DNA of 64,000 nucleotides, taken from contig LVAJ01000026.1 in the NCBI GenBank assembly GCA_001603005.1, positions 21,047 to 85,046 of the forward strand, in the 5' to 3' direction. Source of the stretch: Clostridiales bacterium Firm_04. Its GTDB lineage: Bacteria > Bacillota > Clostridia > Oscillospirales > Ruminococcaceae. Below, in pieces: positions 39,533 to 54,831 of the stretch (positions are counted from its first letter, which is position 1; the number at the start of each line of letters is the position of its first letter). A program made the translations under genes and the position numbers. The notes under the pieces are model-generated. The model searched no databases and was not told where the DNA came from. It saw only the letters and a list, made by a program, of their open reading frames with translations.

Positions 39533-40540
39533 TCAGCAGATCCGCGGCAGAAGCTCGCCCTTCGGCTGCGGCAGGATCGTCTGCGCACCGATCTCGGTCT
39601 CCATGATGACCTTGCCGGCGTTCTCTGCGGTGACCGTACCGATGATCGCAGCGCCCTCGGAATACTTGCCGCGGCGCAGTGTCTCGACGATTTTCTCGGC
39701 ATGCTCCTGCGGTGCGAAAATGACAAGCCGTCCTTCGCAGGCGAGGTACAGCGGCTCCAATCCGAGCATCCCGCAGACGCCCTTCACGCGCGGATCGACC
39801 GGCACGCTCGCCGCATCCAGACGGATGCCGACATTGCTCTGACCGGCGATCTCATAGAGCACCGTGCCGACGCCGCCGCGTGTCGCATCGCGGATGACAT
39901 GGATCTGATCGGTCACCTGATAGAGGCTCTCGACCGTCCCCCAGAGCGGCGCGCAGTCGCTCGAAACGTCAGAAGATATGCCGAAATCGTCACGCGCAAG
40001 CAGGATCGTGCAGCCGTGTCTGCCGACGTCGCCGGTCACGATCACCGCGTCGCCCGGCTGCGCAAGTGTACCGGAAGTGTGCGCGTTCGGCAGGATCTCG
40101 CCGATGCCGGTCGTGGTGATGAACACGCCGTCGCACTGTCCCCTGCCCGCAACTTTTGTGTCGCCCGCGACGATCCGGACGCCGACTTCGGCAGCGGTTT
40201 TCTCCATTGCCGCGGCGATCTCCTCAAGCGCATCGAGCGAAAAACCTTCCTCGATGACGAACGCGCAGGTCAGATAGAGCGGCTTCGCGCCCATGCAGGA
40301 GAGGTCGTTGACCGTGCCGCAGATCGACAGCTTGCCGATGTTTCCGCCGTTGAATTTCCACGGCGAAACGATGAATCCATCCGTCGAGGTCGCGATCTTT
40401 CCGCTGATCGGCGGGAGCACAGCGGCGTCATCGCCCGTAAACATCGGGTTCGCAAAATGCGCCTGAAATACGCTGTGGATCAGCTCGTTTGTCTGGGTAC
40501 CGCCCGCGCCGTGGGCGAGGGTTACTGTTCGTTCACTCAT
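39533..40540 (-). CDS. hypE: Hydrogenase maturation protein HypE
   Basis: The 335-residue protein is full length and ends in PRIC, with the C-terminal cysteine that receives the carbamoyl group from HypF and is dehydrated to thiocyanate. Other motifs are LAHGAGGTQTNELI, FTGDDAAVL, TDGFIVSPWKFNGGNIGKLS, VNDLSCMGAKPLYL and ATRGGVGTVLYEI (PurM/AIR synthase fold, ATP binding). It supplies the cyanide ligands of the Fe(CN)2CO group together with HypF and HypCD. It is separated from hypD by a plus-strand gene and preceded by a 57-residue ORF. Confidence 0.96.
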   Translation of the reverse strand: MSERTVTLAHGAGGTQTNELIHSVFQAHFANPMFTGDDAAVLPPISGKIATSTDGFIVSPWKFNGGNIGKLSICGTVNDLSCMGAKPLYLTCAFVIEEGFSLDALEEIAAAMEKTAAEVGVRIVAGDTKVAGRGQCDGVFITTTGIGEILPNAHTSGTLAQPGDAVIVTGDVGRHGCTILLARDDFGISSDVSSDCAPLWGTVESLYQVTDQIHVIRDATRGGVGTVLYEIAGQSNVGIRLDAASVPVDPRVKGVCGMLGLEPLYLACEGRLVIFAPQEHAEKIVETLRRGKYSEGAAIIGTVTAENAGKVIMETEIGAQTILPQPKGELLPRIC

Positions 40541-40616
40541 TTGATTTTACTCCTTATTTTGATACCGGCAGCAATTGCCGGCAGATTTTGCCTATAAAAT
40601 GGGATCATCTTGCGGG

Positions 40617-40790
40617 TTATTCGATCACCTCGAACATGCCCATGAATCCGCGCAGCTTCGTCCCGAGATCGGGCTCCGCCGGCAGCAGCGCGAGCGCGAC
40701 CGGAAACGGTTCGGCGTCCGGCGCATCGACCTGACGCAGCTCGGCGTAATCGCCGCGGATGTCCGCGACCACATAATCATGCGGCTCCAT
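40617..40790 (-). CDS. Small protein upstream of hypE (57 residues)
   Basis: A minus-strand ATG at 40790, with GAGGTGG at a suitable distance, opens a 57-residue frame ending at TAA (40619-40617). The product reads MEPHDYVVADIRGDYAELRQ and later ALALLPAEPDLGTKLRG. The order V-V-x-x-I-x-G-D-Y-A, then L-L-P, then G-T-x-L recalls the small DUF3006-type beta protein, but this is a weak resemblance. It lies 76 bases ahead of hypE in the same direction. Confidence 0.55.
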   Translation of the reverse strand: MEPHDYVVADIRGDYAELRQVDAPDAEPFPVALALLPAEPDLGTKLRGFMGMFEVIE

Positions 40791-40828
40791 ATATCCACCT
40801 CATTTCGCAATATAATATCAATTGCAGC

Positions 40829-40883
40829 AACATTTCACCCCAAAGGTTTCACTTTTACAATATGAGAAAGTGAAACTTTGAAA
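40829..40883. repeat. TTTCA/TGAAA inverted-repeat motif, left copy
   Basis: AACATTTCAC is followed by GTTTCACTTT and its exact inverse AAAGTGAAAC (40846-40876), then TTTGAAAC. The same elements recur at 42050-42092, on the other side of the RepA-like ATPase gene. Confidence 0.6.
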
Positions 40884-53644: not shown

Positions 53645-53646
53645 TT

Positions 53647-54405
53647 TCAGATACCCCCGCATTCTGCGAGCACGGCGTCAGCGAGTGCGGAGAGCTGCTG
53701 CGCCGCAGGACATGTCGGGTACGCGCAGACGAACGGCACACCGTCCGTATCCGCCTGCTGGATCTCCGGACTGCGGTCGATCGCGCCGATGATGCGCGTG
53801 TCGAAATCCTTCGCGAGCATTTCGGTCAGCGCGTCCTCATCCTCGACATTGCGCCGGTTGAGGATCAGCCCGCCGAGCGAAGCATAGCCTCTGCCCTGAA
53901 AATTCTGCACCGCCATGCAGATGTTTCCGGCAGCATAGCGCGCCATTTTTTCGCCGGATGTGACCACAAACACGCGGTCGGCGTAGCCCTTGCGCATCGG
54001 CATGGAAAAGCCGCCGCAGACCACATCGCCGAGCACGTCATAGATCACGATATCGGGCTGAAAAACGTCGTAGGCACCGAGTTTTTTGAGCGTTTCAAGT
54101 GCATTGATGATGCCTCTGCCCGCGCAGCCGACACCGGGCACGGGGCCGCCCGCTTCGACGCAGATCACGCCGCTTTCGGTCTCATGGACGAGGTCGGCGA
54201 GTTCGATTTTGCCGCCCTTTTCGCGTTCGAGCTGCAAAACGGTCGGGATGCGTGAACCGCCGTGGAGCAGCGCGGTGGAATCGGCTTTCGGATCGCAGCC
54301 GATCTGCATGACGCGATAACCTTTCTGTGCAAATGCAGCGGAAAGATTGCTGGAGATCGTAGATTTGCCGATGCCGCCCTTGCCGTAAATTGCAAGCTTT
54401 ATCAT
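53647..54405 (-). CDS. NifH-like ATP-dependent iron-sulfur reductase, cassette 1
   Basis: The 252-residue protein starts MIKLAIYGKGGIGKST with AAAGGGGG upstream. The [4Fe-4S] ligands Cys94 (GVGCAGRGI) and Cys130 (DVLGDVVCGGF) and the P-loop are intact. It shares the fold and most motifs with the second NifH-like protein at 49902 and differs mainly in the segment after IGCDPKADST. It heads a three-gene cassette NifH-D-K and would be the specific reductase of that component 1. Confidence 0.92.
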   Translation of the reverse strand: MIKLAIYGKGGIGKSTISSNLSAAFAQKGYRVMQIGCDPKADSTALLHGGSRIPTVLQLEREKGGKIELADLVHETESGVICVEAGGPVPGVGCAGRGIINALETLKKLGAYDVFQPDIVIYDVLGDVVCGGFSMPMRKGYADRVFVVTSGEKMARYAAGNICMAVQNFQGRGYASLGGLILNRRNVEDEDALTEMLAKDFDTRIIGAIDRSPEIQQADTDGVPFVCAYPTCPAAQQLSALADAVLAECGGI

Positions 54406-54570
54406 AAAAAATCCCCCTTTGGAGTTCCGGAAGCAATAAAAAATGCCCGCCTTCTGACCGTACAGAAAGGGGCAGGTACGCAGACAGAGGGACTCCGCTG
54501 CGGGTGCCGCGTTCCGACTTTTGCCGCAAGGCGCAAGCGCGCGTTTTGGCATCAGAAGTATTGCGCTGAT

Positions 54571-54831
54571 TCAGTTTTCGGAGGCAGAAGCGGGCGCATA
54601 GACTGTTTTGGCGCTGACGCCGTTCAGTCTGCCGATCGCGCCTGCGAGCCGGTTGATCGCATCCTGCGGCGCATCAATTGCGATATTGATGATGCTGATG
54701 CCGCGGCTGCGGTAAGGGATGCCCATTCTGCCGATGATATACTTATCGTATTCATGCAGCAATGCGTTGATATGTACCGCAGAGCTGCTGTCCTGCACGA
54801 TGATCGCGATGACCGCGACTCTGGTTTCCAT
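54571..54831 (-). CDS. TM1266-type small regulator (iron-only hydrogenase system family)
   Basis: The 86-residue protein has METRVAVIAIIVQDSSSAVH, LLHEYDKYIIGRMGIPYRSR and SIINIAIDAPQDAINRLAGA, ending in GVSAKTVYA. This is the ferredoxin-like ACT/NikR-C type fold annotated as putative regulator of the [FeFe]-hydrogenase system, usually encoded beside hydE, hydF and hydG. None of those genes is visible here. It lies 165 bases before the first NifH-like gene and is the first gene of the cluster. It may sense a cofactor or amino acid. Confidence 0.85.
   Translation of the reverse strand: METRVAVIAIIVQDSSSAVHINALLHEYDKYIIGRMGIPYRSRGISIINIAIDAPQDAINRLAGAIGRLNGVSAKTVYAPASASEN

Follow-up and report, generated by a model that had tools for sequence, protein, structure and literature searches.

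What would bring the maturases HypC, HypD, HypE and HypF together, in about 15 kb of DNA, with two NifH/NifDK-like reductase cassettes? This question is raised by a gene cluster at positions 39533-54831 of the window, a 64,000-nucleotide stretch of Clostridiales bacterium Firm_04 (source genome G000, a 3.54-Mb draft that is 88.6% complete; contig C21, positions 21047-85046). HydG, which makes CO and CN from tyrosine, is to our knowledge the sole described source of the diatomic ligands of the H-cluster of [FeFe]-hydrogenase, and we conclude that the operon found here and in relatives probably replaces HydG in H-cluster building, by joining the HypCDEF cyanide route with two nitrogenase-like reductases (a probability of about 0.77). 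Since the cluster is present where HydG is missing, it is likely an undescribed route to an iron-cyanide-carbon monoxide site, and since HydE and HydF are encoded in the operon of relatives, in genomes without HydG, its likely target is the H-cluster. Genome comparisons give good support to the replacement of HydG, whereas the reaction steps that the route may take are inferred. A note made earlier from the letters of the window (the original prediction) had proposed a new organometallic-iron system, and we found no description of such an operon or route in the literature searched. That note had missed the linkage to HydE and HydF and the absence of HydG, and the system now appears to serve the H-cluster rather than a free-standing enzyme.

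A conserved operon of maturase and nitrogenase-like genes

The cluster lies on the minus strand in the order TM1266, H1, D1, D2, H2, GNAT, D3, D4, HypF, HypC, HypD, a 57-amino-acid protein and HypE, with the features below (model and score in brackets; the Pfam cut-offs are 25 bits for Fer4_NifH, PF00142, and 28.6 bits for Oxidored_nitro, PF00148).

54571..54831, minus strand, TM1266-family protein, first gene of the cluster (TIGR03959, 106 bits, cut-off 60.8)
53647..54405 (longest open reading frame to 54552), minus strand, H1, NifH-like ATPase of cassette 1 (PF00142, 281 bits)
52334..53644 (longest open reading frame to 53662), minus strand, D1, component 1 homologue of cassette 1 (PF00148, 86 bits, and alignments)
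51161..52315, minus strand, D2, second component 1 homologue of cassette 1 (PF00148, 108 bits)
49902..50666 (longest open reading frame to 50792), minus strand, H2, NifH-like ATPase of cassette 2 (PF00142, 290 bits)
49422..49889, minus strand, GNAT acetyltransferase, accessory (PF00583, 51.5 bits)
48126..49412, minus strand, D3, component 1 homologue of cassette 2 (PF00148, 100.5 bits, and alignments)
46638..47675, minus strand, D4, second component 1 homologue of cassette 2 (PF00148, 57 bits)
44220..46616 (longest open reading frame; the true start is perhaps downstream), minus strand, HypF carbamoyltransferase (TIGR00143, 753 bits, cut-off 466.1)
43186..43395, minus strand, HypC (TIGR00074, 57.8 bits, cut-off 48)
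42137..43189, minus strand, HypD (TIGR00075, 410 bits, cut-off 192.8)
40617..40790, minus strand, conserved 57-amino-acid protein, 5' of hypE in the genus (by position)
39533..40540, minus strand, HypE with the C-terminus PRIC (TIGR02124, 408 bits, cut-off 251.6)

The original prediction had the span of the cluster right, and the start or extent was amended for HypC (43186-43395) and for H1 and H2, whose starts are most likely 54405 and 50666, respectively. Its description of HypC, HypD, HypE and HypF as intact holds, and the other genes that it named are present and intact too. These four Hyp proteins and the TM1266 protein all score above the thresholds of their NCBIfam models, whereas for the Nif-like proteins this is true of the Pfam models and of no NCBIfam model. 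Nearly all of the genes are on one strand, as it had said, with a single plus-strand AAA gene interrupting the series between hypD and hypE. The source genome has four Oxidored_nitro matches, every one of them inside the cluster, and the AlphaFold models of D1 and D3 have predicted local distance difference test (pLDDT) values of 89.9 and 85.9, respectively.

Conserved residues were counted over homologues after identical, cut-off or stop-bearing rows had been removed. The cluster cysteines expected of the two NifH-like proteins are present in 97/97 homologues of H1 (C94/C130) and in 76/76 homologues of H2 (C95/C131). The candidate cysteines noticed earlier in the four component 1 homologues also proved to be conserved, with C54, C58 and C118 of D1 found in 100/100 homologues, C69, C70, C126, C129, C142 and C224 of D3 in 73/73, C37 and C42 of D4 in 73/73 (C32 in 72/73), and C37 of D2 in 82 of 92 (V in 8). 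All homologues of HypC retain C2 and H45 (59/59), and all of those of HypE retain the C-terminal P-R-x-C (54/54).

We found HypD in 21 of the 30 genomes of the window's genus. When congener loci were fetched by hypD, D3 lay beside hypC-hypD in 17 of 19, the other two loci being contigs of 5.3 and 5.9 kb. Scanning genome contigs with the D1 alignment yielded 382 loci; the 80 best-scoring ones (the named loci) include Ruminococcus albus 8, AR67 and KH2T6, R. bicirculans 80/3 and many rumen Ruminococcus and, beyond Ruminococcus, Clostridiaceae bacterium BL-3, Lentisphaeria/Victivallales and one Spirochaetaceae metagenome-assembled genome (MAG). The cluster is not a product of chance, since different genera and even different phyla share this arrangement. 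At the named loci, hyp genes are present in all 60 that have 9.5 kb of sequence downstream of D1, a TM1266 match is present in 68 of the 80, and HydE and HydF are encoded upstream of the cluster in 58/80 and 34/80, respectively. All 12 genes are found on a single strand in 21 of 123 loci, in the order HydF-HydE-H1-D1-D2-H2-D3-D4-HypF-HypC-HypD-HypE, and the median gap is -4 bp at HydE-H1, H2-D3, D3-D4 and HypC-HypD. This one-strand operon with HydF and HydE argues that the cluster belongs with [FeFe]-hydrogenase maturation. It also bears out in part the earlier proposal that the two modules act together, in that they form one conserved unit; they are nevertheless separable, since cassette 1 occurs without HypD in 19 of the 47 genomes with D1 that are described below. 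At the BL-3 locus (L132), H1 and D1 are naturally fused in a 700-amino-acid protein.

HydG and the H-cluster genes across genomes

HydG was searched for with TIGR03955 (cut-off, 312 bits), which matched the Thermotoga maritima positive control, and was not found over this cut-off in the source genome. The genus contains 22 operon genomes (21 recognized by HypD, plus G020 by its locus L068) and 8 genomes without the operon, and HydG exceeded the cut-off in 0/22 of the former and 6/8 of the latter. It was likewise not over cut-off in any of 50 named operon genomes, a set that overlaps the genus set and accounts for 50 of the 80 named loci, or at any of these 80 loci; R. albus 8, AR67 and KH2T6 all carry the operon, and in none of the three did HydG exceed the cut-off.

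A family survey of 396 genomes identified D1 in 47, HydG in 154, HydF in 204 and HypD in 41. Among the 204 genomes with HydF (E ≤ 1e-60; 202 above the model cut-off), 148 have HydG only, 43 have D1 only, 1 has both and 12 have neither, an exclusion with a Fisher P value of 6e-32 that ignores kinship. The comparison within genera is safer for this reason, and in eight mixed genera there are 24 genomes with D1 and 18 with HydG and none with both. A ninth genus, g121, was set aside because its single D1 match is a divergent paralogue belonging to G342, the sole genome with both HydG and D1. At the locus of this HydG-bearing genome (L172), which has no HydE match, FecBCD-type genes accompany a NifH/D/K-like cassette that is more distantly related and represents a separate but kindred family.

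The source genome encodes HydE (TIGR03956, 534 bits, cut-off 254.6; L057) and HydF (TIGR03918, E value of 1.7e-151), and in this genome and eight congeners HydE is encoded outside the cluster. HydF was detected in 44 of the 47 D1 genomes and HydA in 11/11 tested operon genomes of the genus, with one HydA of the source genome having the H-cluster-type motifs TSCSP, PCTAKKFE and EIMACPGGCVNGG. In a midpoint-rooted tree, HydE of the source genome's lineage groups with that of the HydG-bearing congener G016 (support, 100/98), HydE of the other three HydG-bearing congeners lies elsewhere, and most HydE proteins encoded in the operon form a separate group (98/95), with those of BL-3 and G133 as exceptions. 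Thus, one HydE lineage occurs both with and without HydG, which suggests that both routes supply HydE with an iron unit of one kind.

HypB (TIGR00073) was over cut-off in 0/30 genomes of the genus and 3/61 overall, and the [NiFe]-hydrogenase large subunit (PF00374) was found in 0/30 and 2/61, so that in the genus hypCDEF and the nitrogenase-like genes do co-occur without HypB over cut-off or a [NiFe] large subunit (HypA was not searched), which supports the original prediction. D1 to D4 scored below the cut-off of each matching NCBIfam nitrogenase, DPOR, COR or CfbD model. Neither outcome that would have counted against the original prediction was seen: a [NiFe]-hydrogenase with hypA/hypB elsewhere in the genome and the lack of a conserved hyp and nif-like neighbourhood in relatives, or a placement of these proteins in a characterized nitrogenase-like clade.

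The candidate route and its rivals

Among the 47 D1 genomes, HypD is present in 28/28 with two cassettes and 0/19 with one. A full-length D1 was found in 26 of the 28 genomes that have HypD and cassette 2; of the other two, both drafts, G473 (81% complete) has a D3-type match only, D1 not being found, and in G279 a D3 match is joined by a D1 that is partial, lying where its contig ends. The one-cassette form, H1-D1-D2, often has HydE adjoining and a FecBCD-type importer. Of 16 such loci (L067 and 15 of L162-L181), in genomes with neither HydG nor HypD, 14 encode an ABC ATPase together with a FecCD permease and 15 a FecB-like binding protein, the two loci without FecCD being cut contigs. In contrast, a FecBCD-type importer was found in 0/80 two-cassette loci, and in 0/4 further ones. 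The importer and HypCDEF with H2-D3-D4 thus look interchangeable, as if supplying the same thing. The importer ATPase of L168 is fused to a TM1266 domain, as one of two such ATPases scanned.

Passages from published work give the background for a mechanism: in HydG-type maturation all five diatomic ligands come from tyrosine (PMC3105041), and the HydG product, presumed to be used by HydE, has one CN and two CO on iron (PMC9431212); the HypC-family protein HybG carries Fe(CN)2CO, with a CO2-related modification proposed as a CO source (PMC8692609); and HypC-HypD is an ATPase (PMC6886295). In the operon route, HypF and HypE would convert carbamoyl phosphate to a cyanide group, which HypC-HypD would bind to iron, both as in [NiFe] maturation. 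H2-D3-D4 might then, with HypCD, complete or remodel the unit to an Fe(CO)2CN type, our best guess being by reduction of CO2 to CO, a reaction of which nitrogenase components are capable. H1-D1-D2 would carry out a reducing step coupled to HydE. HydE and then HydF would finish the H-cluster as usual, because one HydE lineage occurs with both routes, and HydF would load HydA. In genomes with cassette 1 only, the FecBCD-type importer would supply the iron compound otherwise made by HypCDEF-H2-D3-D4. Taken whole, as a tyrosine-free route in which HypEF gives cyanide, HypCD the iron and the two nitrogenase-like complexes CO from CO2, with cassette-1-only organisms importing a compound scavenged from neighbours, this scheme is tentative, and we put it at somewhat under even odds.

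The one-cassette genomes also allow a different division of labour, in which cassette 1 alone replaces HydG and HypCDEF with H2-D3-D4 serve a separate organometallic cofactor or regulation, being linked to it by the operon. The 19 one-cassette genomes, which have HydF and no HypD and in 18 cases no HydG, favour this division, as does the tree of D1 with D3 as the outgroup, where two-cassette D1 sequences, including those of Lentisphaeria and Spirochaetaceae, form one branch among one-cassette rows (Shimodaira-Hasegawa-like approximate likelihood ratio test [SH-aLRT], 98; no bootstrap), so that the one-cassette genomes fall outside it. We consider it unlikely, given the near constancy of D1 in genomes with cassette 2 and HypD and the distribution of the importer over the two kinds of loci, which suggests substitution in one pathway. 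Less likely still is the broader idea of the original prediction, that HypCDEF matures an as yet undescribed Fe(CN)2CO enzyme whose catalytic components, carrying that group, are the nitrogenase-like complexes: D1 to D4 do lie outside the known subfamilies tested, but the operon's HydE and HydF and the mutual exclusion with HydG point to the H-cluster, and D3 has no Cys at the cofactor-ligand position alignable with NifE, where other ligands are possible.

The job of HydG might instead be done by a divergent member of the ThiH/HydG tyrosine lyases, with the nitrogenase-like proteins as redox helpers, and many operon genomes do have matches of 160 to 228 bits to the HydG model, under its cut-off. 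However, operon genomes of the genus (G004, G005, G007, G019, G021, G025 and G027) have only a weak HydE-type cross-match, G017 and G024 have no match to this model at all, and a ThiH-like match is also present in the HydG-bearing congeners G006, G011, G015 and G016, and we regard such a lyase as very improbable. The reading that we find hardest to credit is that HydE and HydF build the H-cluster with diatomics from the cell or its surroundings while the operon serves another process. HydF matured in vitro with HydE alone gave ~1% of full HydA activation, a value that added CO or CN doubled (passages of PMC9431212), but such a supply leaves unexplained both the HydE-H1 overlap within a 12-gene operon and the mutual exclusion with HydG within eight genera.

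Several observations weigh against the replacement of HydG by the operon, which we propose from the comparison of genomes. The cargo of HypC-type proteins, Fe(CN)2CO, differs from the presumed Fe(CO)2CN of HydE, so an unexplained ligand exchange would be needed. The 19 genomes without HypD imply that some HydG-less genomes can do without Hyp, and 13 of the 41 family genomes with HypD have no D1. Besides the 12 of 204 HydF-bearing genomes with neither HydG nor D1 (this combination is seen in G218, G348, G472 and G481, each at least 92% complete), G013 (84% complete) has HydA and neither HydG nor the operon, and HydF was not found in 3/47 D1 genomes or in 5/154 HydG genomes. Order members G039, G041 and G042 (90 to 98% complete) have a HydA match and no HydG or HydE match, so the absence of HydG alone is no proof of the operon route; these genomes have either another, unexplained H-cluster supply or another use of HydA-like proteins. 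In the source genome, the first HydA motif is TSCSP, where we take the usual form to be TSCCP, and a second PF02906 match has fewer than two H-cluster motifs. The search for [NiFe]-hydrogenase and HypB covered 61 genomes, with R. albus outside them and HypA not searched, R. albus strain 7 is outside the genome set, and most genomes are draft MAGs, that of the window being 88.6% complete. In favour of the replacement, HydABC of R. albus, a species with the operon and no HydG over cut-off in the three genomes given above, has been isolated and characterized, in a source whose passages leave the assayed strain unnamed (PMC6288185).

Compared with described systems, the operon shares HydE and HydF with HydEFG maturation (in the operon of many relatives, with HydA present), and differs in that HydG is missing, with two nitrogenase-like complexes and HypCDEF standing in for it. 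With HypABCDEF it shares HypC, HypD, HypE and HypF and their conserved residues, but the genus shows neither HypB over cut-off nor a [NiFe] large subunit, and relatives show the HydE/HydF linkage. It is unlike BchLNB, COR BchXYZ and CfbCD, since its scores are far under these family cut-offs and its operon partners are hydrogenase maturases, and unlike NifHDK and NifEN, since it is below the Nif cut-offs and linked to H-cluster genes; from the methylthio-alkane reductase Mar it differs in this linkage. The candidate assignments rejected on score were NifH (294 and 304 bits; cut-off, 394), NifE (best, 71 bits; 505), BchL (≤204.5 of 345), BchX (190 of 331), BchB (≤50.5 of 490), BchZ (22 of 529), CfbC (296 of 402) and the CfbD model (20 of 268), and the cut-offs for NifD, NifK, NifN and BchN were likewise not reached. 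The cofactor ligands of NifD are Cys275 and His442. The cysteine of NifE has no counterpart in D3 at the aligned place, in alignments judged by eye, and substitute ligands are possible.

HydG-less genomes with Hyp proteins have been noted before. According to passages of a 2022 survey of acetogens, HydG, sought by known motifs, was not found in 5 of 8 Clostridium species, four of these five have HypCDEF and lack recognized HypA/HypB, and an atypical radical-SAM candidate was proposed alongside other scenarios; unlike the window's genus, these acetogens hold [NiFe]-hydrogenase (PMC9431212). Possible counterparts of the operon's NifH-like genes are the cluster IV NifH sequences of the human gut, which were recovered in clones of both genes and transcripts, mostly resemble those of Ruminococcus and other Clostridiales, and are described in passages as largely of unknown function (PMC4995403).

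If the operon does replace HydG, it would offer a candidate function for part of these genes, which are abundant in gut and rumen, and would mean that the convergent [NiFe] and [FeFe] cofactors share chemistry, with a second natural ligand route. It would also bear on where [NiFe] maturation obtains its CO ligand under anaerobic conditions and add new parts for the making of hydrogenases, since few known hydrogen catalysts rival the H-cluster. The finding bears, too, on who makes H2 in the rumen, where R. albus is known to produce it.

Other features of the locus

A GNAT match was found at 4/19 congener and 4/80 named loci, and a stretch similar to the 57-amino-acid protein is present at 17/19 congener loci (the query was 51 bases off, in frame). 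Between hypD and hypE, a 1.25-kb plus-strand element at window positions 40841-42089 contains an AAA_25 gene (41053-42027) and has imperfect inverted repeats of ~46 nucleotides. None of the 19 congener loci and 80 named loci showed a match to this element, which is likely a mobile insertion.

The hypF-hypC interval contains a repeat of ~255 nucleotides in two copies (window positions 43549-44119; parts 82% and 92% alike). The D3-D4 interval (47675-48126) has a coding-like stretch on the minus strand from 48124 with an in-frame stop, possibly a decayed gene. Next to the cluster and divergent from it, genes for the diadenylate cyclase CdaA and then a YbbR protein lie at 55630-58029, and this pair adjoins the cluster in 4 of the 19 congener loci.

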